The notes under the pieces were generated by a model. The model saw nothing but the letters and a program-made list of their open reading frames with translations. It did no database searches and was not told the DNA's origin. The translations under genes were made by a program, and so were the position numbers. 64,000 nt of DNA from Spirogloea muscicola (taxonomy: Eukaryota > Streptophyta > Zygnematophyceae > Spirogloeales > Spirogloeaceae), in the NCBI GenBank assembly GCA_009602725.1, contig WELB01000071.1, forward strand, positions 540,464-604,463, written 5' to 3'. The stretch's first letter is position 1; the number at the start of each line of letters is the position of its first letter. Below, piece after piece: positions 7,206 to 63,600 of the stretch.

Positions 7206-7312
7206 CCCCCCTGTTTCGGGTCAATCTGCTGTACGTTATGCAGATCTTTACATGTGCTTGCTACCTTTGTACTTGGCCATTTGGCCTTCGTTTGTTTTAA
7301 ATACACGACGTT
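7206..7312 (+). mobile_element. LINE-B 3' UTR fragment
   Basis: Matches the LINE-B tail: GGGTCAATCTGCTGTACG, TGTGCTTGC, then a hairpin GGCCATTTGGCC and AATACACG near the 3' end. The same block follows the LINE-B stop codons at 7733 and 58206. No coding part precedes it, so it is a strongly 5'-truncated copy. Confidence 0.75.
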
Positions 7313-7327
7313 TTCCTTGCCCCTGTT

Positions 7328-7830
7328 GTCACGGAGGTCCAGCATCGACGCACATCGCTGGCCACGCAGTGGGCGGTGCAGAACAAAGAAAGCTGCAGCA
7401 CTACTCATATTACCCCCAATGTGATCAGCTCCTGCCAGCGGCAGTCGACATCTTTGGCTGTTTGGGTCCTCGTTAGCACACTCTCCTTCAGAATATTGCC
7501 AATCTAGGCTACACACGACATGCAGATGTATTCCCGGCTGAGATGGGCTTGCCAGCTGCATATCTGTCGTTCTTGCGACGACGAGTTTCGGCCTGTTTGC
7601 AACGTGCTCAGGCTAATGCTTTGCACCAGAACGCTGGGCGAGCTTTAGTTGGTGGCAGAAGGGCTTCGTATCTGCCATCTAGTAATCAGGCATCGATTAG
7701 CAACCTTTATTTTTGGACCCGTGGTTACTGAGCCGGTCAATCTGCTGTATGTTATGTAGGCCTGTCAATGTGCTTGCCTTTGTACTCGGCCATTTGGCCT
7801 TCGTTTCGTTCAAATACACGATTCACCCCC
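7328..7830 (+). mobile_element. LINE-B 5'-truncated copy, C-terminal ORF with a stop, plus 3' UTR
   Basis: Encodes the end of the LINE-B protein from STHIAGHAVGGAEQ through AAVDIFGCLGPR, then an in-frame TAG at about 7474, then HTLLQNIANLGY to the terminal WTRGY and stop at 7733. At 57121-58206 the corresponding codon is Phe, so the copy is inactive. The 3' UTR with the GGCCATTTGGCC hairpin follows to about 7830. A tail of the same family lies directly upstream, giving two tandem truncated insertions. Confidence 0.85.
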
Positions 7831-8027
7831 TCTAGCACCCCTCTTAATACCCTATGTGCTTGAGCGCTTTCCCGGGCCCTTCGAAGTTTGTTATATCTTT
7901 ATTCTGGGCTGGACTCTCACTTCCACCGCGCTCTCCTGGAAGCGCCGTTCTTCTCCTCTAGCAGCTCCAGAAGCGGACGTAGGACGGGTTGACAAGGGCC
8001 CCATTTCTTTGTACTAGTTTTTGCTTG

Positions 8028-8092
8028 AACAACGATTGAGCTTGAGTTGGCCACCCTTTCAGTTCATGCGCGTCTTCTCTCTTTTTTCCCGG
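8028..8092 (+). repeat. Repeat C copy
   Basis: Contains TTGAGTTGGCCACCCTTTC followed by a CATGCGC...CTTCTCTC motif, the core of a short element seen at least six more times in the window. A more divergent copy may lie at 8300-8372 (GCTTGGCCTCCCCTGTGC...CACGCCTTCTC). From 7830 to 8028 there is a LINE-A-like scrap (TTCTGGGCTGGAC near 7900) and nothing else recognised. Confidence 0.6.
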
Positions 8093-14800: not shown

Positions 14801-17800
14801 GCTCCTCAGTCATCTGGAGGTAAACGAACGTGTACTTCACGAGTTCCGGAAGGCCTTGCTCAACCAACTAACACAGCAGAATGACACGTATAGACAATTA
14901 ATCAGACAAAGGAAGATAATTTCAATACCTCGCTAAGTTGCTCACTTGCAAAGCTCATCATTGCTTAGAATGTGGAAAGACAGGTATATAATTTGTCCTC
15001 TTTGAAAAATTTCTGTTGTTATTCCAACCCTGGAAACAGGGGAGGCGACATGATTGTTCAAAGTAACACCTTACCTTGAAGTATTGGGGATGGCATGACA
15101 CACTCATGAGGAACTCAAATACCTGCAAGTTGACAGAAGAAGGCCCTCAGCAGCCTGGAGCCTCATCATTAGCTTTGCATCACCAAAGTAGAGAGATAAC
15201 AGAGTACCAACCAATACTTGCTTGCAAGTTTTCAAATGCAACACATTTTCAAAGCTAGAAACGCTGTTACAGCAACTAGGCTTGCATATCAATAACCGGA
15301 TTGCGGCCGCTGCTGTGTTTTTTCACAAAATGAAGTCTAAGATAGGTACACAATGACTGGGCCTTGCATACTTGACTAGGCCTTGCATACTTGAATCATG
15401 AGCACTTCGAGTCCCTGCTCACTCCCATCCATGTCGTCAAGATTGCCATGAGTATCCTCCAGGCCGGCGCCTGCACCTCTCTCATACACAGAGCTGCCAC
15501 TTGTGAACGTCTGCCAAAGTGATCCCAATATCCCTGCTTCAATTGCAAAGCGTCCAAGCTTATGGACGGTCAGAGAGTCTTCTAAGAGATTAAGATTTTC
15601 CTAGGTAGATTATGCTATGCAAAAGCAGAGGCTCAGATGAATTACCTGGTAGATGCTCTGCAGAAAGCCTTGGAAATTTCTGAACAATCTGGAATAAGCA
15701 CTTGATGACCTATTCATAGAAATTGTCAGGAAAAAGAAGGTTTAGGACAATCTTTATGCCCATGCTGCCAAGTCCTGGTTGCTAAGGAAATGTCAACGTT
15801 GCTCACCTGCATTCGCATTGCCCATTCTGTAGGAGAATCAGATGGCAGAGGTGGTGTAAGCATCGAACAGAAGTATTTGATAAGCTGCGGTAGCATAGGA
15901 GCCATGAGATCCCTTATCTCCTCCTGTCAAAGAAATAATCGAGACACGCACTCATTTATGACGTCTCCCAATAGCTGCAGTCTTACTGCCAACAATAAAG
16001 AAGAGTCATGTTGACTGCGTCCAGAACGTCTGACCTTGATGAGCTTTTTCAGTCATTCAGCTGATATAGTAATCAAAGGCTGACGACAATGGCAATTGCA
16101 TCTGGCTAGGCTGCTTCAGCACACGAATCTGATCCTTCATCCTTGCCTGAAGTAGCCTCTGTGGGACACTAACAAGGGTCGTACACAATTCCTTCTATTA
16201 GCTTAAAAGGAAACTGCAATTATGAGCTGTGTGACTGCTTGTATATCAATGCACCTGGTAGACTCCGCTCATGACTCCCAGCATGGCTATGCAATTTCGA
16301 AGAACATATAAGGCTCGCTGACATACTGATGATGGATAGACCTGCGCCCACACAAGCCCATACCGTACGTTATGCCATAAAATAGAACATGACAGCCGCT
16401 CAGAATGCTGACCAAAGCCCTCTTAGAAATAATCTGGATTAGTAAGAAGGTACCTGGTCACTAGTGAGAATGGAATATAGTACAGGGAACAATTTTGGCA
16501 CCAACAATGGCAACTGCGTATCATCGATGTCATCAGACAACAGAGCCAAGCACTGAAGAGCTCCGTGTACTATCACATTGGAAAACAGATCACAAGAGGC
16601 CATACATGAAATCTTCAAGTCTTTGTGCTTCAAGACAAGCTGACAGAGGAAGAATTGTCTGGCCCAACTTAGAGCAAGAATCAGGCAGCTGTTTGATGGA
16701 TTTGAAGCTGATGGACAAGCAAGCAACACCCAACCCCTGTATCATTGGCAGGCAGTGGTGAGAGGATGAAAGCAGGAGGGCAAGTGCACCTCGTAGTTGA
16801 TTGCTTGGATCTGCAATTGACTCGACGAGGATTGGCATCAGCTCAGGCCACTCCTGTGGCCAGTCAAACTGTGCAATGGCAATGATAGCCATGCCAATGG
16901 CGGTCTGCAATCTTCTCTCACGAACTTCCAAAGCAGCTGGCAACAATGCCTTCATAATGGCCTGTACAATATTAACTATAACTTGAGTCCGCCTCTCAGC
17001 ATGCAACTGAGACATGCTGATTGGAGGGGATGACAGCTAGCTCGAAAATTGATCATTCGAATACAATCTGGCTGGAGAGGACAATGAGAAGGTGTACTGG
17101 GGGGAATATGTTGCGTTCTACTGGATGTGATAAGACTGAAGAACATGCTTATAGTACGAATAGCTGCAGCTTGACATCTGCATTGTGTTGAAGAAGGCAA
17201 TGCCACTATTATTTTACTTTGTCTTCTGCAGATACACTTGGGGGCCTGTAGTGCTCATCGCCTTCTTGCCAGTGCTCCTTGACGTACTGTTTCACCAACA
17301 CAGCAGCTAGGTGTACTAGAGTCAAGCAAATGAGCGAACCAGTGCAGATATGGCGGCCAAGTCTTATGCTGCCTACAATAATTTCCAGATTGTCTCAAAG
17401 AAAGACATATTCGCGATGAATTGCTAAACGAGAAGTCAGAAGGATATCTGCCGAATATCTACATCCACGCCTTGCTGAGTCACAATCCTCGCCAAGACAA
17501 CCCCATAACCTGGCAGAAAAGGATGCATGATCAATCAGCTACTGACAAAGTAGTAACACATATGACATCGTGAATTTACTTGAGGCTCTCCAGCTCCCTG
17601 GTTGCTTTGCAGCGTTGCTGAGATCCTGTGTCGCTAGATTGATGATAGTCTTGTACTGTCCAGCCAAGGCAAGCCAGCTCGAGCTCCTCAACAATCAACC
17701 AGTGGGCAAGTTCACCTGGCTGCTCACTGGCAGCCGCCAGCGCCTGCTCGGCGGTCCGGCGTGTGACCAGGTCGGCAGACATGGTGGCCTCCAGGCGCTG

Positions 17801-17851
17801 CAGGATCCACGCTCTGCCGTCGTCCGCCAGCTCCGCCATGGCAGCTGCCAT
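8846..17851 (-). CDS. IPO9: Importin-9 (karyopherin beta, nuclear import receptor)
   Basis: HEAT-repeat import receptor; in animals importin-9 carries histones H2A-H2B and some ribosomal proteins into the nucleus. The gene fills 9 kb with many small exons. Clear parts: exon 1 17716-17851 (MAAAMAELADDG...), exon 2 17448-17509 (GYGVVLARIVTQ...DIRQ), exon 3 from 17310 (LAAVLVKQYVKEHW), then AIAQFDWPQEWPELMPIL near 16860, LPLLVPKLFPVLYSILT near 16480, EEVVVPVVLEIWAQYIN near 12320, an acidic stretch (DDDEWEELGEG) near 9470, and the last exons ending DVDAARDLINQ at 9139 and DLVEWLRELLRTLA at 8846-8944. The N-terminal importin-beta repeat, the DWPEAWP-like motif and the acidic region near the C-terminus are all typical of importin-9. 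Exon 2 is joined to exon 3 by an apparent AT-AC intron (17311-17447). Middle exons were not all placed, so the full protein is not modelled. The stop at 8846 is the first in frame. Confidence 0.9.
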
Positions 17852-25039: not shown

Positions 25040-25486
25040 GCGAAAAGAAAGAGCTCGCCCATTGAGGATAGGGGCTGGAACAGCCAGCCCAAAAAAGAAT
25101 GGACTAAGTACGAGAAGAAAGAAGATCGTGTATTAGAAAGAAATGTAGGCCAAATGGCCGGGTACAAAGGCAAGCACATCTAAAAATCTACATAACCTAC
25201 AGCAGATTGACCCGCTCAATAACCACGGGTCAAAACATAAAGGTCACTACTCGATGCATGAATACTAGATGCCAGGAACGGAGCCCTTCTGCCACCTACT
25301 AGAGCTCGCCCAGCTTTCTGGTGCAAGGCACTAGCCTGAGCACGCTGCAAACAGGCCGAAACTCGACGTCGCAAGAGCGACAGGTATGCAGCTGGCAAGC
25401 CCATCTCAGCCGGAAACACATCTGCGCGTCGAGTGTAGCCTAGATTGGCAATGTTTTGAAGCAGAGTGTGGAAGCGAGGACCCAGA
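25040..25486 (-). mobile_element. LINE-B 5'-truncated copy with 3' UTR, followed by a LINE-A tail
   Basis: Read leftward: LGPRFHTLLQNIANLGYTRR and MGLPAAYLSLLRRRVSACL to the stop at 25216, then the 3' UTR with hairpin GGCCATTTGGCC to about 25120. A LINE-A tail (TTTTTTGGGCTGGCTGTTCC) follows at 25060-25105. The coding part is open but is cut upstream by the gap at 25487. The tail from 25125 to 25307 matches 34904-35086 with only a few differences, indicating recent copying. Confidence 0.85.
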
Positions 25487-29487: not shown

Positions 29488-30336
29488 CGCGGCGGCGGCA
29501 AGAGCCGGGAGGCCGCACGACGTGGGAGCGGCCCCGCGGACGCTGCCAAGCGTCTGGAGCCTCGCACAAGAGCGGGAGGTGCGCCGGGACGGAGCGGCAG
29601 GCAAGAGGGCGGCGGAGGGGCGCAGGCGCCGCCCTTGTTGGGAGCGCGGGCGGAGGCGCGGCGAGGCGGCGCGCAGGGCGGGCGAGGCGGAAGCGGGCGA
29701 GTGCACTACGTGGGCGGGGCAGCGGACACTTGGTGGCCGACGGCCGTGTCCCGACCCAGCGCCACCTGTTTATAGGACTGCCAAGGGTTTGCGGGTCCCG
29801 ACGGGAGCGAGCAGCAGCGTCAGCTGGTGCGGGCAGCCCCGGCGGCGCGGGGGGAGGTCGGGAGCACCTTCCGGTGCTTCTTCCGGGAAGCTCGTCGCCC
29901 CTGTGGCCGCGTGCGCACCTGCTGGATCTACCCGTCTCTCCCCGTTCTGTCGTAGCTCTGTCAGGCCCCCGTCGTAGCTGCTAAGCGTTTTTGGCCCCTT
30001 CGAACCTTTGTCATTCTTTTCGGGCTGGCTTTTCACAGCCCTTGCCCCTATGGAAGAAGTGCCCGCCTATGGGGAGTCGGCGCGTAGAGCAAGACGTGGC
30101 ACTGGTCTCCAGCCCTTTCCTTCCATTGGTTTTAAATTTTGATCTTAGATTTATGCCCCCCCCAATTTCCAAAGCAAGTGAGCTATTCCTGAGAAAAAGA
30201 TAGAGAAAGTGCTCGCCCATAGAAAAAGGGGGCCAGCAAAGCCAGCCCGGAAAGAATGGACAATGTCCGAAAGCCAAAGAAAAAAAATCACACAGCTAGG
30301 CAGCTAGACAGGAAGAAACGACGGAACCACAGGAAG
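29488..30336. repeat. GC-rich promoter DNA and LINE-A tails in both orientations
   Basis: 29488-29980 is GC-rich and probably holds the promoter of the leftward membrane-protein gene. At 29990-30060 (+) there is a LINE-A tail (CGGGCTGGCTTTTCACAGCC). At 30215-30290 (-) there is another (GGCCAGCAAAGCCAGCCCGG on the plus strand). Confidence 0.6.
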
Positions 30337-30383
30337 CTCAATATCCACGGGTGAGCAACATCAGGTCAGAGTAGCTCGACGGG
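30337..30383 (-). pseudogene. LINE C-terminal scrap (YSDLMLLTRGY-stop)
   Basis: The minus strand encodes SSYSDLMLLTRGY and a stop, a clean end of a LINE ORF of a third subtype; the same peptide is at 58859-58894. It abuts the 5' side of the intact LINE-A, in the opposite direction. Confidence 0.7.
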
Positions 30384-30409
30384 GGCTGGGGCTCTCAATT
30401 GGGCTCGCC

Positions 30410-33400
30410 ATGGGGTCCGCGGCGGCGAGCAGGCCCCCTCCCGCGCCGGCCCCCGCCGCCTCCGCCGCGCCGCCCGCCGCCGCCGCCCCACCCACGCGTC
30501 CAGGGCGCCGTCGCCGGAGCAGGAGCCCCGAGTACCCCCAGGCCAAGTTCGCTTGGGCGCAGCGGTGTCTCACCCTGGCCGCCCTCCATGCCGCCACTGC
30601 GCCACCTCCGGAGCAGCCCCCCCTTCTTCCGCCGCCGTCATCCCCGCCTGAGGCGTCCGCGCGAGCGCAGTGCCCAACCTGCCCGCGGGACTTCAAAAAT
30701 CAGAAGGGTGTCTCCATGCACAAGAAGCATTGCAAGGGGTCTCCCAGCCCCGCCGGCACGACGCCCGGTGTGGCCGCCGCAGCTGGCAACCCCATCGCCA
30801 CGGTCCTGGCAGCCTCACCCCAGGAGCAGGCCACGGAGGAGCATCCACTGCCTCCCGCTCAGCCGCCGTCCCCACCGCCGTCGCCGCCGCCGCCGCCGCC
30901 CTCGACGCCGCCCGATGTGGCCGCCGCAGCTGGCAGCCCCACCGCCATGGTCCTGGATGCCTCACCCCAGGAGCCGGCCAGGGAGGAGCATCCACTGCCT
31001 CCCGCTCAGCCGCCGTCCCCACCGCCGTCGCCGCCGCCGCCGCCGCCCTCGACGTCGCCCGATGTGGCCGCCGCAGCTTGCAGCCCCACCGCCACGGTCC
31101 GGGCAGCCCGACCCCAGGAGCCGGCCACGGAGGAGCACCCATCGCCTCCCGCTCAGCCGCCGTCCCCACCGCCGTCGTGCCCACCGCGGTCAGCGCCATC
31201 GACGCCGCCCCCGTCCCCGCCGCCTCCACCTCCGCCGAGCGAGCCGGCGCCACCGCCGTCGCCCCCACCTCGCTCGCCCGACCCGCCGCGGTGCCAGCTG
31301 TGCCAGAAGACCTTCTCCACGCGGTCCGGCCGGTCCAACCACCAGCGAGCTTGCACGTGTACCAACAACCGTGCGGAGCAGGCGCGGAGCGCAGCGGCAG
31401 CGGGTGGTCGTCGAGGCCGACCAGGCAGGCCTCCCGCGCCGTCCCCGCCCACGCCTCAGCACTGGGAGTGGCTGGCAGGCCTCGACCTGGCCGCCGTTCA
31501 CCGCACGGCGGCCCTGCCGCTCCTTCGCCACGTCCCGCGCTGGGCGCGCCCGCACCTCCGCCGCGCGCTCCGCCCGGTGACGCAGCGGATCGTCGCGGAC
31601 CACAGGGACGAGGCCGCCTGGAAGCTCTTTCTCCTCTTCCCGCGGCTGTTGCTCGGGCGGGTCTCTCCCGACGGCCGCAAGCAGGGCCAGCAGCCCCTCT
31701 TGGAGCGCGTCCACATGTTCGAGAGCGGGCACTGGGAGGAGCTCCTGGCGAGGCACGACGCAGCCGTGGCGACGTCCGCGGCCAACGGTGGTGGCCGTGG
31801 GACTACACACGACCGGGCCGCCAGCGTCCGCAGGGCTCTTCGCTACGGCCACGCGGGTGAGCTCTCCCGGGCTGTGCAGGCCCTGGACGATGCGATGCTG
31901 GCGCCGACCAATGCGGCCACGCGGGCGGCCCTGGACTCCCTCCACCCCCCGGCCAGCTCCTCCCTGCCACCGTGGTTGGCCGCGTTCGCCCCGCCGGAGG
32001 AGGTGGTCTTGGAGGCCGACGCCCTCAAGAAGGCGCTCCAGACCAGCCGTCGCGCAGCCGCCGGCGGTCCCTCCCGCATGCTCACTGAGCACCTGCGGGA
32101 GATCTTCCTCGAGGGCGAGGCGGCGGACTTCAACGGGCTGCTGCAGATCTGCCAGCACCTGGCCAGGGACAACGTGCCGGCCGGCATCCGTGGCGTCCTG
32201 TGCACCAGCACGCTGCTCGCCCTCGACAAGCCGAGCGGGGGGGTCAGGCCCATTGCCATTGGGGAGGTCCTGTACCGCCTGGTGAGCCGCGTACTCTGGC
32301 AGCAGCATGCGGGGCCGGCGCAGGTGCACTTGGCGCCACACCAGTACGGCGCGGGGCTGCGGAGTGGAGGCGAGGCCGTCGTTCACGGGGTCCGTGCGAC
32401 CTTGGACCAGCACCCGGGGTGGCTGGTGCTGGCCGTCGACGTGGCGAATGCCTTCAACACCGTGGAGCGCGCCAGCATTGCGGAGGAGCTCCGGGCCTCC
32501 TTCCCCTCCCTGGTACCCTTTTTCCGCTTGGGGTATGGTCAGCCCAGCGACCTCCTCTGGCGGACAGGGGGTGAACAGGTGGAGGTCCTGCAGTCCCGCA
32601 CGGGCACGCGGCAAGGGGACCCCCTTGCCGGCTTCTTCTTTGCGCTCGCGCACAACCGGGCTCTGCAGGCAACCGCAGCGGCCCACCCGGGAGTCCTTCT
32701 CCCAACCTTCGCGGACGACACCACAATAGTCGGCCCTCCGGAGGACGTGGCGGCGGCCTTCGGTACCTTCGAGCAGCAGCTGGCCTCCCTCGGCCTGTCC
32801 ATTCGGGCGGCGAAGTGCGCGGCTTGGTCCCCTGGCGTTATTCCACCCACCCTGGCGCTGCCCCCCGGATGCCGGACTCCGGCGGATGGCTTCACCCTCT
32901 TGGGCGTCCCCATCGGCACGCCGGCCTTCGTGGAGGGGCAGCTGCGAGCCCGCCTCGAGGAGCACCTTCTGCCCGCGGCCCGGCTCCCCGAGCTGGAGGA
33001 TATGCAGCTGTCCTTGGCCATGCTGACCAAGGCCATAGGGCAGCGGCCCCAGTACCTGACGCGGGCCACCCCGCCGTCCCCAGGGGCATTGGCAGCGTAC
33101 GAGGCGTTCGACGCGGGCATGGGGGCGAGCTTGGCGGCCCTGGTCCGCCACCCGGGCTTCGTCCCGTCGTCAGCAGCTCTCCACCAGGCGGCGCTACCCA
33201 TCAGCCACGGCGGCCTCGGCCTGCGCCCGCTCGTCCGCTCATGCCGGGCGGCATACCTCGGCAGCTGGGCACAGACTGCCGCCTCCGTGGCGCAGCGCTT
33301 CTTGGTCCATGGCCGGCGTGCACTGGAGCAGGCGGTGGTGGAGGTGGACAAGGGCGCGCTGCCGTTCCAAGTGGCGCTTAGCACCGCCCACCAGGAGCTG

Positions 33401-34399
33401 CTCGCGGCACACCCCGACATGGCAGGCCAGGCGGTCTCGTTTGCGCACCTCGCGCACACCGCTGACCTGCGCGTCCAAGCGCGCTTCGCGGCCGTCGTCG
33501 ACAAAGCCGCCTACACCACCGTCGTACTGCAGCTCCCTGAGGCCGACCAGCGCGGGCGCGCGAGACTCCTCTCTGCCTCGTCCCCGGGAGCAGCGGCGTG
33601 GCTTCAGGCCCTCCCCCTCACCGACGCCCTCACGCTTCCCGATGAGGTCTTCCGTACTGCAGTCCACAGGCTCCTGGGCTTGCCGCCTCCTTGTCTCCAG
33701 GGCGTGCGACAATGTGCATGCGGCGAGCGAGGGGCCGAGTCTGGGGAGCTAGCCGCCCACGTCCTGCGCTGCGCTCACGGCGGCGAGCGGACGGCGGCCC
33801 ACGACCGCCTCCGCGATGCCATGCATGGCATCCTGGCGGAGGCGGGCTTCTCGGTGGCTGCGGAGCACTCCGGCGTCATGCCGCTACAGGAGAGGGCCGA
33901 CGGTGTCCACGGCCGGCGAGTCGACCTGGTGGCCACCCCACAGGCCGGCGGGCCACGTCTTCTCCTGGACGTGGTGACCACCGACGCCTTCGACCGCTCC
34001 CACCCAGTCCAGTGTGCCACCCAGGCTGGGTATGCGGTCGAAGGCGCCGCTCGCGCAAAGGTGACCAAGTACGCCGACCATCCGCCAGCCGACGCGTTCT
34101 TCCCTCTGGCTATCGACACCCATGGGGCGTTGGGTGCTCGGTGGCTCGAACTGCTCCACCAACTTGCTCGTCACGCCGTTGCCCGCCGCTTCCATGGGGA
34201 GCCGGTGGACTTCCCCGCCGCCGGGTCGTTGGCCCAGGTGTATCGCATGCGCCTGGCCGTCTCGCTGCAGAGGTCCATGGCCCGTGCGCTGCACCTGCGT
34301 GCTGGCCGAGCCCTTGCTGCTGCCTCTGGCTCTGGCCAGGGGACATACTTCCAGGAGCATAGCCTCTCCGACCTGCGCCTGCTTAGCAGGGGTTACTGA
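30410..34399 (+). CDS. LINE-A ORF: non-LTR reverse transcriptase with restriction-like endonuclease
   Basis: One uninterrupted ORF of 1,329 residues. Order: C2H2 zinc finger CPTCPRDF...MHKKHC (about 88-108); three 49-residue Pro-rich tandem repeats (119-266); second C2H2 finger CQLCQKTF...NHQRAC (about 295-316); reverse transcriptase with VRPIAIGEVLYRLVSR (about 612), VLAVDVANAFNTVER (about 674), GTRQGDPLAGFFF (about 731) and the catalytic FADDTTIVG (about 767); Cys-His motif CACG...HVLRC (about 1102); restriction-like endonuclease region RRVDLVATP...LLLDVVTTD, followed by the KVTKY lysine motif (about 1170-1225); end SDLRLLSRGY. Single ORF, N-terminal fingers and C-terminal endonuclease place it with R2-like elements, not with APE-type LINEs. 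All catalytic motifs are intact, so it could be active. An earlier in-frame start at 30410 is preceded by no obvious alternative. Confidence 0.92.
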   Translation: MGSAAASRPPPAPAPAASAAPPAAAAPPTRPGRRRRSRSPEYPQAKFAWAQRCLTLAALHAATAPPPEQPPLLPPPSSPPEASARAQCPTCPRDFKNQKGVSMHKKHCKGSPSPAGTTPGVAAAAGNPIATVLAASPQEQATEEHPLPPAQPPSPPPSPPPPPPSTPPDVAAAAGSPTAMVLDASPQEPAREEHPLPPAQPPSPPPSPPPPPPSTSPDVAAAACSPTATVRAARPQEPATEEHPSPPAQPPSPPPSCPPRSAPSTPPPSPPPPPPPSEPAPPPSPPPRSPDPPRCQLCQKTFSTRSGRSNHQRACTCTNNRAEQARSAAAAGGRRGRPGRPPAPSPPTPQHWEWLAGLDLAAVHRTAALPLLRHVPRWARPHLRRALRPVTQRIVADHRDEAAWKLFLLFPRLLLGRVSPDGRKQGQQPLLERVHMFESGHWEELLARHDAAVATSAANGGGRGTTHDRAASVRRALRYGHAGELSRAVQALDDAMLAPTNAATRAALDSLHPPASSSLPPWLAAFAPPEEVVLEADALKKALQTSRRAAAGGPSRMLTEHLREIFLEGEAADFNGLLQICQHLARDNVPAGIRGVLCTSTLLALDKPSGGVRPIAIGEVLYRLVSRVLWQQHAGPAQVHLAPHQYGAGLRSGGEAVVHGVRATLDQHPGWLVLAVDVANAFNTVERASIAEELRASFPSLVPFFRLGYGQPSDLLWRTGGEQVEVLQSRTGTRQGDPLAGFFFALAHNRALQATAAAHPGVLLPTFADDTTIVGPPEDVAAAFGTFEQQLASLGLSIRAAKCAAWSPGVIPPTLALPPGCRTPADGFTLLGVPIGTPAFVEGQLRARLEEHLLPAARLPELEDMQLSLAMLTKAIGQRPQYLTRATPPSPGALAAYEAFDAGMGASLAALVRHPGFVPSSAALHQAALPISHGGLGLRPLVRSCRAAYLGSWAQTAASVAQRFLVHGRRALEQAVVEVDKGALPFQVALSTAHQELLAAHPDMAGQAVSFAHLAHTADLRVQARFAAVVDKAAYTTVVLQLPEADQRGRARLLSASSPGAAAWLQALPLTDALTLPDEVFRTAVHRLLGLPPPCLQGVRQCACGERGAESGELAAHVLRCAHGGERTAAHDRLRDAMHGILAEAGFSVAAEHSGVMPLQERADGVHGRRVDLVATPQAGGPRLLLDVVTTDAFDRSHPVQCATQAGYAVEGAARAKVTKYADHPPADAFFPLAIDTHGALGARWLELLHQLARHAVARRFHGEPVDFPAAGSLAQVYRMRLAVSLQRSMARALHLRAGRALAAASGSGQGTYFQEHSLSDLRLLSRGY
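30767..31207 (+). repeat. Three 147-bp tandem repeats inside the LINE-A ORF
   Basis: Units start at 30767, 30914 and 31061, each encoding (G/D)VAAAA(G/C)(N/S)P...ATEEHP...PPAQPPSPPP. The 49-residue period keeps the frame. Differences between units are few, so the expansion is recent. Confidence 0.85.
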
Positions 34400-34903
34400 G
34401 TGGTTAGTAGCTGCTTTGTTTTTTCTTGTGTGCTTGTCATTTCTGCTGCTTCGCCTTAGGGCTTCGCCTGGCTTCCCCCCCCCTCTTCTTGTACTCTGTT
34501 CATTCTTTTTTGGGCTGGCTGTTCCAGCCCATATTCTCAATGGGCGAGCCCTTCTTCAATTCCTAAGGGGGCTGGGGCTCTGAATCCCGGGGGCTACCGG
34601 GAAAGCTTCGCAAAATCGCTGTTTGGCCCCTCGGACCCTGTCAATCTCGGGCTGGCTTTTTCTTTCTCTTCTCTATGGGCGAGCACTTCTCTCTTTTCAT
34701 AGCCCTAAAGCAAAAGCTTTCAAATTGCTCGAGTCCTCACCCTCTCTATGGGCGAGCACATTCTTTCAGGACCTCCATCACTCATCAACACTCGAGGTAA
34801 TACTTTCTTCATCATTGCTAATCGCTTGTAGGCCCCTTCCAAACCTTTGTCAATTCTTTTTGGGCTGGCTTTTCGCAGCCCTTGCCCCAATTGGGAAAGT
34901 GAT
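34400..34903 (+). mobile_element. LINE-A 3' UTR and extra LINE-A tail pieces
   Basis: After the stop at 34399: GTGGTTAGTAGCTGC, a C-run, then TTCTTTTTTGGGCTGGCTG and CAGCCCATATTCTCAATGGG at 34500-34545. Additional partial tails begin at 34645 and 34850 (GGGCTGGCTTTTCGCAGCCC), so several 3' ends are stacked. The true 3' end of the full element was not determined. Confidence 0.75.
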
Positions 34904-35086
34904 CGTGTATTAGAAAGAAATGTAGGCCAAATGGCCAGGTACAAAGGCAAGCACATTTAAAAATCTACATAACCTACAGCAGATTGACCCGCTCAATAAC
35001 CACGGGTCAAAACATAAAGGTCACTACTCGATGCATGAATACTAGATGCCAGGAACGGAGCCCTTCTGCCACCTACTAGAGCTCTG
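34904..35086 (-). mobile_element. LINE-B 3' UTR and C-terminal codons
   Basis: The minus strand encodes ALVGGRRAPFLASSIHASSS to DLYVLTRGY and a stop at 34999, then the 3' UTR with GGCCATTTGGCC. It is nearly identical to 25125-25307. Confidence 0.85.
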
Positions 35087-44595: not shown

Positions 44596-47500
44596 TCATC
44601 CGCGGCTTGTCCTGTTTGCCGGGGTCTTGAATGTGGACCCTATGTTTGGGAACCAGCTATTATTCCTGGCCGCCCTGCCATTATCCTCGTAACCATCCAC
44701 ATCCTCTGGCGTCAGATTCTCTACTGAGCCCTGCGGCATGCCCCAGTCAGGCTGGCTGTCTGCAGAGAAGGCCCCCGCAGTGCTTACCAAGGCCTTCGAT
44801 GTGAATTGGCTGTGGATTTTGTCCCGTAGGATCAAAAGCTCCTCCACCTGTCCACAACATGTACAACTTGCTGCCATTCAGTGAGTATGCTTGTTCAAAT
44901 GCAATTTGGTGCTAGGCGACTACTGCAAAGGTCTTGCATACACAGTCCAGGCCTAAACCCTCAATGCTACAAATCAAACCCTAAACCCTGATCAACCAAG
45001 ATGCTACATAAACTCACCGAAGTCTTCTCCTGCTGGTATCTAGCTGTTGCAGCCACATGCCTTGCAACAGCCTAAGTATAGTAGGGAACAGACAAGGCAA
45101 ATGTAAGTACCAAAAAAAGCAGCGAGTGGCTAGCCACCACGCTATTTAACAACCACAACAACGCACAGATAGAGGTGTTGTGCCTTCCATATCCTGCAGC
45201 AATGGCCTAATGAGACAACAACCAGCTCAAATATTAAGCACTGAAATAGCTGAACATTCAAAGTGTAAGAATATTACGACAGGCTCTACACGCACCTCTC
45301 TGTACTCAGCCTCAAATTTGCGGAGCTCATCCCGCTTGGCCAAGATGGCTTGCTCTACTTGTTTCAGAGCCTCCTTCGTCTCAGAGTGGTTTGCCAATGA
45401 GACAGCTTCTATGGTGTACGCAGCCTTGTTGAAGAAATTATCGCCTGCGCAAAATAACAGAGACGATCACATGCTCCATTGAGTACATCAAGCACAGTAG
45501 GTTGATGACCTACTCGAAACTCTTGTCTGTAAGTCTATCAACACCAGCATAGAAATACAGTACAGAAGACAGGCCCTCAAGACCCAACTGTACAGGGCAA
45601 CTTGAAGAGAAGACAAGATACAATGAGGGCTCTTGTTGCTCCTACCATATACAGCAAAGATGTGGGTCCCTGCTCTCAATGACGACATATCGCACGGTTG
45701 CATGTTTTCTAACTTCTTGAAAAGAGCTGCTTCTGGATCTTTTGCCACCTCCAACTGTGCATTGCACAAACAACCTTCTGATCAGCAAGGAGCATTGACA
45801 TGCTCAAACATTGTACCGATGTAGTGCAGACTGGCACAAACCGCCTCAAGTATGTGCATCAGACAAAGGCTTGTTAGGGAATCCATACCGCATTGACGCT
45901 GGGGTCTAATCTGTAGACTTGAAAGTGTACGAAAAAGAATCCAGCTGCCGTCTGCCTTCCACTCTTTACGCTGTTTTCCTGTGCACAGAATGCCCTTCGC
46001 TGCTTCAGATGCCGAACACTGCAGAATTGCTGCACAAGGACATGCATCGTGCTGTTCTCATTGGTCATCACTGGGGTTAGTGATCGTGTGCAGCCAATAC
46101 CTCACCTGAAGGGCCATTGATAAGCCACCTGTGTCCTCCTGCTCGAAATACAAGAGCTGCACACAAGCTAGCAAAGACCCTCAGTGCACCACTATGACTG
46201 TAGTTGCCAGCTTCCACTTCCCCCAGTATGATGTGAACTGGTCAATACTTGATCTTATTTGGTATGGGCATTATCCAGTCAGGCAAGGCTTTGAGGCGTT
46301 CGAAGCATTCTGCTCTCGGTAGCAAATGAGGAAGTGCGTGAATAGCTCCGACCAGGAATGGCATGTTGATAGGTTGGCAGCGCACACCTTGAACTTGCTT
46401 GCAGATGGTGAAGTGACCCTCACTGCAATGCCGCTTTCAGCTTGCTCCTTGCTGATGCTAACCCCGTAGTAGTGAGCAGTTCCCTTCTCAACCTGTTGTG
46501 CAACGGGCTAGTAAGACCTAAAGTACTGGTGCAACACGCTCCTTCACATGCATGGAGTCCCTGGTGGCAAGGTACCTCACCCTGTCCGAGACTGCTCGTC
46601 CAATGGGAAGAGGTCGGACGGTCACAGTGCCATTCAGTGCCTCCTCTAAGACAGTGCTCGAGATTGCCGTTTTTATGGGAACACCTAATTTGCTGGAGAT
46701 GGCAGGTCAGGTCAAGAACGGAGTAAGCGAGGGTAAGTGCATGCACATCAAGAAGGACACTAGAACTTCACGGCGACGATAGGGGGAGGACATGTCCATC
46801 TCGTGACGGTCAGGGAAGCAATGCTGGACTGTTTCTGATGAGGTTGTGCCAAGTTCAGACACGAGAGTCAGGGAATGCAAGTGCCAGACCAGACGGTAGG
46901 GATGGGCTGTTTTGGGAACATGGCCACAATACCCTACTTCTTTGGTACGCCTACCTAAAGAGCGCCACTACTGTTGTGTTGAACATGTTGAGACTAGAGA
47001 TGTCGAGCGCAGTGTCAAGGCCCTCAAGGTCAACAGCCTGCACGCACAATCCCCCTTCAGATAACAAGTTAGCAAACGGAGACAGCATGACACAGGTTAT
47101 AGAGCAAGTTTGCCGTGCGCTCCAAGATAATCGATTGGGCTATGGAAGTGGCATGGCCGTAAATGATTGACAGAAGGAAGCTCACGGAGAACCACTTCTG
47201 GGGGTGTTATCAAAGCAAGGTCAAAGAAGAAGCTCAAAAATGGCGTCAGCCAGCAAGAATTGACCGGGTGAGATTGACAGAACCTCGGCCAAAACCCCAG
47301 CCTGCAGAGGCAAGGACCTGCGTCGTGCAGGGCCTGGGGAGCGTCGCCTCACCTCGAATCCCATGGTGTCATACTGCCGCCTCTTGTCAGGGTCGGACAG
47401 GATGCCATATGAGTACGCCACCTCCTTGAACTGCTCGGATGCCGCCGGGTTGTTGGCGTTCTTGTCCGGGTGGTACCTGCGAGCAAGGCACCAGCTCTTG

Positions 47501-47764
47501 CTTAGGAGGTCGCCCATGTACCAGTCGTATTGGCACAAATCTGCAGGCCCGAGATCGATAGTGGCAGCAGGACTTCGTCCGTTGGAAGCCGACAATGGAC
47601 AAGGCCATGATGCAGGGGCCAGGCTGTGCGTACTTGAGGGCCAGCTTGCGGTATGCGCTCTTGATCTGGTCCAGGTCCGCGCCCTTGGGCAGGCCCAGGA
47701 CCTCGTAGGGGTCCCGGCGCAGCCGCTTCTCCGGGGGCGGCGCCCCCGCCGCCGCTTGCGACAT
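44596..47764 (-). CDS. ARG1: ARG1-type J-domain protein (altered response to gravity)
   Basis: DnaJ co-chaperone; the Arabidopsis homologue is a peripheral membrane protein acting early in gravity signalling. The start ATG is at 47764. J domain in two exons: RRDPYEVLGLPKGADLDQIK and YHPDKNANNPAASEQFKEVA with the HPD catalytic triad, then SYGILSDPDKRRQYDTMGFE. Later exons follow the ARG1 order: VDLEGLDTALDISSLNMFNT, KLGVPIKTAISSTVLEEALN and GTVTVRPLPIG, VEKGTAHYYGVSISKEQAE, LLYFEQEDTGGLSMALQ, GFFFVHFQVYRLDPSVNA, AKDPEAALFKKLENMQPC with AGTHIFAVYG, DNFFNKAAYTIEAVS, a coiled coil (QVEQAILAKRDELRKFEAEY), ARYQQEKTS, and VEELLILRDKIHSQF ending at 44596. Introns are GT-AG. Exon junctions I checked keep phase. 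The acidic, Asn-rich final 60 residues are not conserved. Confidence 0.94.
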
Positions 47765-48054
47765 GGCTGGCTCACCGCCGAGAGCAGCCGGGGGGCGTCC
47801 CTCGACGGCAGCGCCCCAGCTCCTCGAGGACCAGCGACGGCAGCGCCACGCTCGCCACCGTAGCCGCCGCCGCCGCCGCCACCGCCGCCGCCACCGCCGC
47901 CGCCGACGGGCAAGCACTCAGGGCAGGCCCAGAACGGGGTGCGCTGCAGCTGCTCGCTGCAGCCAGGGAGCGGCCCCTGGCGGCGGCCCTCCGCTTCTGC
48001 CTCGCGATCCACGTGACCGCCACCTTCTCGGCGCGCTCTCGCACGGACGCCGCT

Positions 48055-48088
<34 letters not shown>

Positions 48089-48369
48089 ACTGTTGCGGCT
48101 CGGGGCGCCGCCAGCCGCGACAGGGAGGAACGGCGACTGCAGAGTGCGACGAGTGCCACAATCAGCGGGACGTTGCTGGCCGCCAGCGGTTCACCGTCGG
48201 CGGGAAAGGGGGAGATGCGCGCCATGTGCACGCAATGGAACGAGTCAGACGCCAAGGCGAGCCACTCCGCCGATCAGGCCATAACATTTTGCCAAGGATG
48301 GGGCTACACAATGCTAAGCCCGTGGCTGAGAGGCTCAGTTAACTTGCAGCTGGAGAAGGAAAATGCGTG
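47765..48369. promoter_or_regulatory. GC-rich upstream region of ARG1-like gene
   Basis: Contains (GCC)n tracts at 47865-47905 and 48050-48090, typical of promoters in this genome. Long open frames here are triplet-repeat artefacts. Confidence 0.45.
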
Positions 48370-56379: not shown

Positions 56380-56730
56380 CCTGTCCATTCTTTTTGGGCT
56401 GGCTTTGCCACTTCCAGGAGCCCAGCATCTCTGATCTGCGGCTGCTTAGCAGGGGTTACTGAGTGTCTCGTAGCAGCTTTGTTTCTGTTACTTAGCGCTT
56501 CCCCTGGCCCCCTTCTCGTACTCTGTTCATTCTTTTTCGGGCTGGTTGTTCCAGCCCCTATTCTCAATGGGCGAGCACTTTCTTCTTTGCCAGCCCCTCT
56601 TTCTCTATGGGCGAGCCTTCTTCTTGACCTTGTCCATTCCTCGGCATCTCATTCTTCGGCTTTGGACATTGTCCATTCTTTTTGGGCTGGCTTTGCCAGC
56701 CCCTCTTTCTCTATGAGCGAGCCTCTTCTT
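56380..56730 (+). mobile_element. Stack of LINE-A 3' tails
   Basis: At 56411-56462 the frame EPSISDLRLLSRGY plus stop is a LINE-A end, followed by its 3' UTR with CGGGCTGGTTGTTCCAGCCC at 56540. Further tails begin at 56390, 56690 and 56735. The segment at 56630-56725 reappears almost unchanged at 58935-59030. Confidence 0.8.
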
Positions 56731-57120
56731 CTGGGCTGGCTTCTCCCAGCCACCAGTCAATTCGGCCGCGCTTTTCTATCCGGCGGGGCCGAGATCGGGG
56801 TTTGGGCGGCGCCTGCTTGCCCCCATTGGGAGAGCCACTTCTCTGTCCGCCCTTCTTCTTCTCTGTCCGCCGCCCTTGCTGGAGATACTTGACATCAGCA
56901 AGCGCGCTCCCGTGGATCCGGCAGCGGTGCAGGCTGCCAACCAGCAGAAGAGAAGAAGTGGCTTTCCCAATGTGGGCAAGGGAAAAGCCAGCCCGAAAAA
57001 GCTTCGAAGGGGCCAAATGACGGAGGGGCCTAAAGCGCTAAGCAGCAGAAGAGTTGCTCGCCCTTTCTTGCGCAGGCAGCCTTTCTCGGTTGCTGGCACC
57101 AGGTTGCCTCCCTTCTTCCC
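56731..57120. repeat. LINE-A scraps ahead of the LINE-B copy
   Basis: Includes a GGGCTGGCTTCTCCCAGCCA hairpin at 56736 and a minus-strand tail at 56960-57010. No independent gene seen. Confidence 0.5.
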
Positions 57121-58300
57121 TTGCGCTTCCCTTGCCTGGCCGGCCCTGCAGCCGAGGTGGAGGAAGGCTCCTTGGCATTCCAAGTACAACTGAGGAGCAT
57201 CCGGGAGTCAGCACTCGGCTCCTTCCCGTCCCTACAACCCCTCCTCACCCCCTTCTCAGCGCTTGCTCAAGCACCAGACAAAGCGGCACAGGCCAGACTC
57301 GTTGCGGCAGTTGAGGACGAGCGTCGCAAGGCGTTGAGGACGATGCCGGATATCAAGACCAATCCAAGGAGTCTGGCACGTCTCACATCGCTCGCAACGC
57401 CTGGGGCAACGGATTGGCTCACCACACACGCAATCCACAACGCTTTCAAAATCAGCCCTGAAGCATTCCGGACGCTTCTCCAGCTGTTCCTGGGCCTGCC
57501 CCCGACCTGCCTGATTGGAGTAACTCAGTGTGAGTGTGGCTTCCGTACGGAGGGCGGAGACCTAGCCACCCACATGCTGCGGTGTCCCACAGGCCCTGAG
57601 GTGGTGGGCGTCCACAATCTCCTACGGGACGCCCTGGCGGGCTTGATGCGCGACGCCGGCTACCGCGCCATCGTTGAAGTGAGCAATGTAATGCCCATCA
57701 CCACGGATTCCCAGGGAGGCCATCACCGTCGCACCCTGGACATTGTGGGTGTACAACCTGGCGGAGGCCCACGAGCTTTGGTTGATGTGGTGGTGACTGA
57801 GGCATACAAGAGTTCCGCTTCCACACACATTGCTGGCCACGCAGTGGGAGGTGCTGAGCAGAAAAAGCTCCGACACTACTCAGACTACCCCCGCAGTGAC
57901 CACCTCCTCCCGGCCGCAATCGACACTTTCGGCTGCTTGGGTCCTCGCTTCCATACCCTACTCGAGAACATAGCGAGTCTGGGATATGCACGACGCGAGG
58001 ATATGCTCCCAGCCCAGATGGGTATGCCGGCAGCCTATCTGTCATTTCTGCGACGTCGAGTGTCAACCTGTCTGCAACGAGCTCAGGCGTATGCTCTGCA
58101 TCAGAAAGCTGGTCGAGCCTTAGCTGCTGGCACAAGAGCTAGTCAATTGCCGTCCGGTATTCGAGCGTCAGCTAGCGACCTCTATGTGCTGACTCGTGGT
58201 TACTGAGCGGGTCAGCTTAGCAGCAGGTGACGTACATTTGTCCAATGTGCTTGCCTTTGTACTTGGCCACACATGGCCTCCCCATCTCTTAATATACACG
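57121..58300 (+). mobile_element. LINE-B 5'-truncated copy with open C-terminal ORF and 3' UTR
   Basis: An open frame of 361 codons ends at 58206. It carries the Cys-His motif CECG...HMLRC, the endonuclease region HRRTLDIVGVQPGGG then RALVDVVVTEAY, EQKKLRHYSDYP (the lysine motif), AAIDTFGCLGPRFHTLLENI, AYLSFLRRRVSTCLQRAQAY and the end SASDLYVLTRGY. It aligns with the C-terminal third of LINE-A, but the two are clearly different families. No reverse transcriptase is present. The 3' UTR ends with hairpin GGCCACACATGGCC and AATATACACGC. Confidence 0.88.
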
Positions 58301-62818: not shown

Positions 62819-63258
62819 GCCGGCTCCGCCGGGCGCCACACAGCCCACCGGGCCCCGCGCCGGATCAATGCCGCTGCGGCCCGCTGCCGCCGCCGCCGCG
62901 GCTGGCCCCGCGCGGCTGGAGGCGGCCGCTTCCATGCCGCCCTTGGCGGAGCATGGCGGCCGCTTGCAGCCGGCTGCTCGTTGGCGCCAGGCTGCCACAA
63001 TGACGGCCGTGCCTGCGGGAGCGCCCCAGGCGAAGACCTGACCAACGAACCGGGCGTCGCTCCGACGGCCCTGGGCTGCGGCGGATGAGGTGATCCGAGG
63101 CGGGCGGCGGCGGCGGCGGCGGCTGCGGCGGCGGCGGCTGCGGCGGCGGCGGGAGCAGTCAGGCCTTCTGAGACGGCGCCTTACCAAAATCGGGCACCCA
63201 CAGAAACACCGATAAGAAGCAAAAGAGTATAGATTGTCTGCACTAGCAGGAAACACGT
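62819..63258. promoter_or_regulatory. GC-rich upstream region of GT90 gene
   Basis: Includes a (GGC/CGG)n tract at 63100-63155. It is bounded on the right by the 5S rRNA gene on the opposite strand. Confidence 0.45.
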
Positions 63259-63379
63259 GATACGATCATACCAGGGCCACTATACCGGATCCCATCAGAA
63301 CTCCGAAGTTAAGCTAAGCTCCCTTGGGCGAGAATAGTACTGGGATGGGTGACCTCCCGGGAAGTCTTCGTGTCGTATC
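63259..63379 (+). rRNA. 5S ribosomal RNA
   Basis: A 121-nt match to the plant/green-algal 5S consensus: CGATCATACCA near the 5' end, GGATCCCATCAGAACTCCGA, GTTAAGC, TTGGGCGAGAATAGTAC, GGGATGGGTGACCTCCCGGG and AAGTCTTCGTGTCG. The terminal stem pairs GATACGA (63259-63265) with TCGTATC (63373-63379). The internal Pol III control region (A box to C box) is intact, and the first T-run for termination lies at 63390. Helix II has an unusual GGGC/GCTCCC pairing that remains complementary, so the gene looks functional. It is single here, not in a visible tandem array. Confidence 0.95.
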
Positions 63380-63429
63380 CACCCTCACCTTTTCTCCCCA
63401 CCTTTTCTCTCCACCGCTTTGGTGGCACC

Positions 63430-63600
63430 CCGGCTCCTTCAGACCTTGTCCATAGCGCTTCCTCTGGCTTCCTCTGGCCCCCTTCTCGTTCTTTGTTCAT
63501 TCTTTTTTGGGCTGGCTTGTCCAGCCCCTATCCTCAATGGGCGAGCCCTTTCTTCTCCCATTCCTTTGGGCTGGCCTTTCCCAGCCACCAGTCAATCTGG
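63430..63600 (+). mobile_element. LINE-A 3' UTR fragment just downstream of the 5S gene
   Basis: GCGCTTCCTCTGGC, CCCCCTTCTCGTTCTTTG and TTCATTCTTTTTTGGGCTGG match the LINE-A 3' UTR (compare 56493-56560). A second hairpin GGGCTGGCCTTTCCCAGCC is at 63569. It begins about 50 nt after the 5S 3' end. Confidence 0.8.

Follow-up and report, generated by a model that had tools for sequence, protein, structure and literature searches.

The stretch of DNA that we analysed (64,000 nucleotides; referred to below as the window) contains an importin-9 (IPO9) gene on its minus strand, and the second intron of this gene has the features of a U12-type AT-AC intron. The parts of the gene that bear on this assignment are the following, in window positions; the homeologs are described below.

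17716..17851, minus strand: importin-9 exon 1, 136 nt, with a likely start codon at 17851
17448..17509, minus strand: importin-9 exon 2, 62 nt, ending VDVDIRQ
17311..17447, minus strand: importin-9 intron 2, putatively of the U12 AT-AC type, 137 nt, phase 0
17439..17447, minus strand: 5' splice site ATATCCTTC, 9/9 columns invariant in 3/3 homeologs
17321..17329, minus strand: branch site TTGCTTGAC, one mismatch to TTCCTTRAY, 8/9 columns invariant in the homeologs
17311..17316, minus strand: 3' splice site GTACAC, 6/6 columns invariant in the homeologs
17218..17310, minus strand: importin-9 exon 3, 93 nt, 31 codons, beginning LAAVLVKQYVKEHW

Three further features lie elsewhere in the window.

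30308-34399, plus strand: possible non-LTR retroelement, an open frame of 1363 codons encoding a reverse transcriptase domain (PF00078, E 4e-17)
47221-48273, minus strand: open frame with a DnaJ domain (E 1.1e-13)
63258-63381, plus strand: 5S ribosomal RNA gene (83.5 bits)

U12-type introns of the A-type consensus carry ATATCCTTY at the 5' site and a branch site near TTCCTTRAY, and they end in AC. In IPO9 intron 2, ATATCCTTC fits RTATCCTTY in 3/3 homeologs, and the AT and AC termini are fixed by the coding sequence. The A of the branch site TTGCTTGAC is nucleotide 17322; its distance of 11 nt to the exon lies within the range of ~10-13 nt from the 3' end that is typical of this class, and the 137-nt segment ends in TTGCTTGACTCTAGTACAC. 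The coordinates, strand, 5' site, branch site, AC end and frame that the first-pass annotation had proposed for 17311..17447 all agreed with our reading.

Joining 17448 to 17310 gives VDVDIRQ|LAAVLVKQYVKEHW, with VDVDIRQLAAVLVKQYVKEHW as the full junction peptide. The spliced product aligned without a gap to residues 56-102 of a PDB importin-9 chain, which we take to be the human protein (phmmer, E 9.7e-07), and the alignment runs across the junction, bearing out the earlier proposal that the AT-AC join yields the importin-9 sequence IRQ-LA. The product of the five predicted exons was recognized as an importin-beta N-terminal domain (PF03810, E 1.2e-12). Retention of intron 2 would bring in a stop after three codons.

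We then searched the genome from which the window comes (G000; 153 Mb in 471 contigs) with the importin-9 exons. Of the 18 matches obtained, C71 (the contig of the window), C308 and C32 accounted for five each; the other three, all weak, fell singly on C66, C43 and C89. Downstream of the gene, the C308 and C32 regions were collinear with the window over ~8.5 kb, at 91.7% and 85.7% identity, respectively, and the two additional IPO9 copies therefore appear to be homeologs and not haplotypic duplicates. Dispersed repeats common to the three regions were also seen, at window positions ~7217-8082, 25049-25484, 34485-35084, 56510-58269 and 63466-63550.

The aligned introns of the three IPO9 copies measure 137, 136 and 135 nt. 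Nine of the last ten bases were invariant, as were 71 of 110 columns of the interior. The C32 branch site, TCGCTTGAC, has two mismatches, and in the same copy TG stands in place of the AG at -5, which leaves no upstream AG closer than 58 bases; GTACAC is unchanged. With no nearby AG in C32 and GTACAC preserved, the acceptor is most simply read as AC. The retention of the splice motifs in all three copies suggests selection on them.

Next, the same genome was searched for the RNAs of the minor spliceosome with Rfam models. U12 was found at three loci (80-81 bits, cut-off 53), U6atac at three (83-86 bits, cut-off 33) and U11 at four (46-60 bits, cut-off 39), all exceeding the curated Rfam cut-offs; U11, U12 and U6atac therefore occur together in the genome that contains the intron. 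The snRNA copies are near-identical internally and their flanks diverge. The U12 copies retain GAGTAAGGAA and ATTTTTGG, presumably the branch-binding stretch and an Sm-like site, and the U6atac copies retain GAGAAGGTTAGCA, which we take to be a functional stretch. A TATCCCA motif, presumably related to the upstream element of plant snRNA genes, which it resembles, lies 68-77 nt upstream of 9/10 snRNA loci: the distance is 68-69 nt at each U6atac locus and 76-77 nt at the U12 loci and at three of the four U11 loci. It was absent within 200 nt upstream of the fourth U11 copy (L011, C439:1913-2051), which may be a pseudogene. Calculated energies of short duplexes are uninformative for this intron, with the U12-branch site pairing matched or beaten by 21% of 1000 shuffles and the U11-5' site pairing by 55%.

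A protein specific to the minor spliceosome was detected as well. The CENATAC profile (PF14968) matched five exons in two places of the genome, three on C7 and two on C4 (best E 2.5e-26), and CENATAC promotes the splicing of AT-AN minor introns in human cells (PMC8280824). The first-pass annotation had stated that a genome devoid of minor-spliceosome parts would refute the intron; U11, U12, U6atac and CENATAC are all present. U4atac gave no match with RF00618 at E 0.001, and PDCD7/59K gave none with a PDCD7 profile; in both cases the control genomes were equally silent, so that these negative results do not prove that the two are missing. A U4atac pattern derived from the U6atac pairing matched once (control pattern, 0), at a place where the expected loop was absent and which was unconvincing by eye. 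The three U6atac copies (L005-L007) have GATAAGGACGGGA where pairing with U4atac is expected, and a partner U4atac should covary with it.

We also looked for further AT-AC introns with the pattern ATATCCTTY-N85-115-CTTRAC-N8-12-AC, which gave nine matches in the genome, compared with 11 for a control pattern; each such count covers one length range only and is not a total of minor introns. The lack of excess over the control pattern disfavours a large number of minor introns within that length range. Three of the nine matches were the IPO9 introns, five are treated below, and one fell in an NHX5/6-like gene.

C58:447143-447280: second putative AT-AC intron, NHX5/6-like gene, between VSVALSCAL and LFKYAGLSV, found by the pattern search

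The joined exons of this gene aligned without a gap to residues 321-407 of sodium/hydrogen exchanger 6 (E 5.1e-16), and in its intron the branch-site A of GTCCTTGAC lies 11 nt upstream of the 3' end. U12 introns are known in Arabidopsis NHX5 and NHX6 (PMC4892727). Two gene families of this genome would accordingly be predicted, from their sequences, to carry AT-AC minor introns. No further two-site U12 intron was found in the two CENATAC regions, the NHX region or the window beyond those of NHX and IPO9.

The other five matches (L060, L064, L065, L066 and L067) gave no convincing join by eye and look like chance; two of them sit in coding or GT-AG context. Among these, L065 (C168) and L067 (C256) are related stretches that both begin with ATATCCTTY and match the AT-AC pattern, and perhaps represent a repeat. 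Two other patterns were likewise unproductive. The consensus pattern TATCCTTT-N70-100-TTCCTTRAY gave one match (control, 1), which by eye overlaps a kinase-like exon, and the short pattern ATATCCTTY-N10-40-TTCCTTRAY gave one (control, 0), at which intron context was absent by eye.

These results bear on the possibility that an intron formerly of the U12 type has been left mostly unspliced in the gene copies by an ongoing loss of the minor spliceosome. Neither U4atac nor PDCD7 was recovered by the Rfam model, the pairing pattern or the PDCD7 profile (the models matched nothing in the control genomes either), and strict U12 motifs were not in excess over control patterns, as such a loss would predict. 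However, U11, U12, U6atac and CENATAC are all multi-copy and conserved, the RNAs beyond their flanks and CENATAC as a protein, and the splice motifs are kept in every IPO9 copy; we consider ongoing loss very unlikely. A wider reading is that an alga near the land plants has retained a reduced minor spliceosome for a few, mostly A-type introns, with U4atac strongly diverged, or absent and its task of delivering U6atac taken over by another RNA. We regard this as a long shot.

We used a scan of alternative borders to assess whether the major spliceosome could remove the segment, be it as one of the rare AT-AC introns of the U2 type or by way of a displaced GT-AG pair. Donors from -40 to +79 and acceptors up to +64 relative to the proposed borders were combined for five border types, giving 477 donor-acceptor pairs, 92 of them with an open frame. 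The first-pass annotation had held that no GT-AG pair nearby keeps the frame. In this literal form the claim failed, since 12/66 GT-AG pairs in the scanned interval leave the frame open, but its conclusion stands: each of the 12 joins removes 13 to 31 exon residues around the part where conservation is highest, and even the join that deletes least loses VDIRQLAAVLVKQ. Major AT-AC introns do exist (PMC8280824). By inspection, however, ATATCCTTC is not a U2-like 5' splice site, as it has CCTT at +5 to +8, which marks the minor class, and only CTCTAGTACAC follows the branch A. With the minor machinery also present in the genome, removal by the major spliceosome is even less probable than loss of the minor one.

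A decayed or misread gene with a chance U12 motif is next to impossible: although an unanchored motif of like quality arose at least once in 7/100 first-order Markov windows (mean 0.08, compared with one in the real window), the exons on either side are intact and resemble those of an importin, and chance is not a reasonable explanation of a motif that lies exactly on homology-fixed exon borders and is kept in 3/3 diverged homeologs.

We conclude that IPO9 intron 2 is very probably a genuine U12-dependent AT-AC intron that would be removed by the minor spliceosome. The U12-type assignment made by the first-pass annotation is thus supported by the motifs, the homeologs and the machinery. The intron motifs, three snRNA families and CENATAC can be read directly from the genome, and the splicing steps are taken from the established pathway. 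In the first step, base pairing would bring U11 to ATATCCTTC and U12 to the branch site, whose A would be bulged; U11 would then be replaced by U6atac. As an A-type intron, it would be favoured by a CENATAC-containing minor tri-snRNP. Since the retained intron brings a stop three codons downstream, slow removal could limit importin-9 output.

The type of host was examined with light-harvesting proteins. An Lhca4-type exon (L022) scored 246-266 bits against full-length Lhca4/P4 chains in the PDB and 218-225 bits against two truncated ones, compared with at most 185 bits for other chains among the best 60. An Lhca3-type exon (L025) scored 245 bits at best, with green-algal chains reaching at most 197 bits and the weakest full-length plant chain only 201 bits, close to the green-algal value, among the best 60 chains; the plant and green-algal assignments of these chains are our assumption. 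Neither exon was closest to proteins of Chlamydomonas and its allies. Both matched streptophyte proteins best, and the genome is therefore most likely that of a streptophyte, not a chlorophyte.

Copy numbers in the genome were three for IPO9, U12 and U6atac but two for CENATAC, and by eye the LHC look-alikes form sets of 2-4. Because genes occur in sets of two to four, the genome has probably been multiplied, with triplication as the simplest form. A genome triplication has been reported for the zygnematophyte Spirogloea muscicola (PMC7994812). The host, probably an alga, may be close to this species, with a land plant as a less likely alternative.

The first-pass annotation had set the intron against Chlamydomonas, which lacks the minor spliceosome, as an informative case in a green alga. 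Green algae were indeed reported in 2010 to be without U12 splicing, with Chlamydomonas as the example (PMC2846911), but this framing does not suit the present genome: the Lhca exons place the host among the streptophytes, and minor introns have been published for streptophyte algae, with 166 in Chara braunii and 110 in Klebsormidium nitens (Larue and Roy 2023; PMC10639083). The present case resembles these two in its streptophyte host and in the presence of minor snRNAs, and differs in that it concerns another genome, perhaps a member of the Zygnematophyceae. The names Spirogloea and Mesotaenium are absent from the main text of that study, algae are not treated in the available part of PMC7367187, and the main text of PMC10407611, which mentions both Spirogloea and the spliceosome, contains neither 'minor intron' nor 'U12'. 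Among the matches listed in our literature searches, we found no report of minor splicing in Zygnematophyceae and no paper on importin-9 U12 introns.

Compared with plant and animal U12-type AT-AC introns, IPO9 intron 2 shares the 5' site, the branch A 11 nt from the end and the AC end, and differs in the one mismatch of its branch site and in being present in three homeologous copies. According to the accessible text of PMC8280824, nuclear transport genes are enriched among those that retain AT-AN introns without CENATAC, and IPO9 is also a nuclear transport gene.

Taken together, the IPO9 case is a well-supported further example of a known intron type, in a lineage where it is expected. The intron and the machinery fit existing knowledge of the land-plant lineage and overturn nothing. 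In what is most likely a streptophyte genome, they document genes for minor snRNAs, CENATAC, and putative AT-AC introns in two genes, and with the three IPO9 homeologs nature has provided a mutational experiment on the splice signals of U12 introns.
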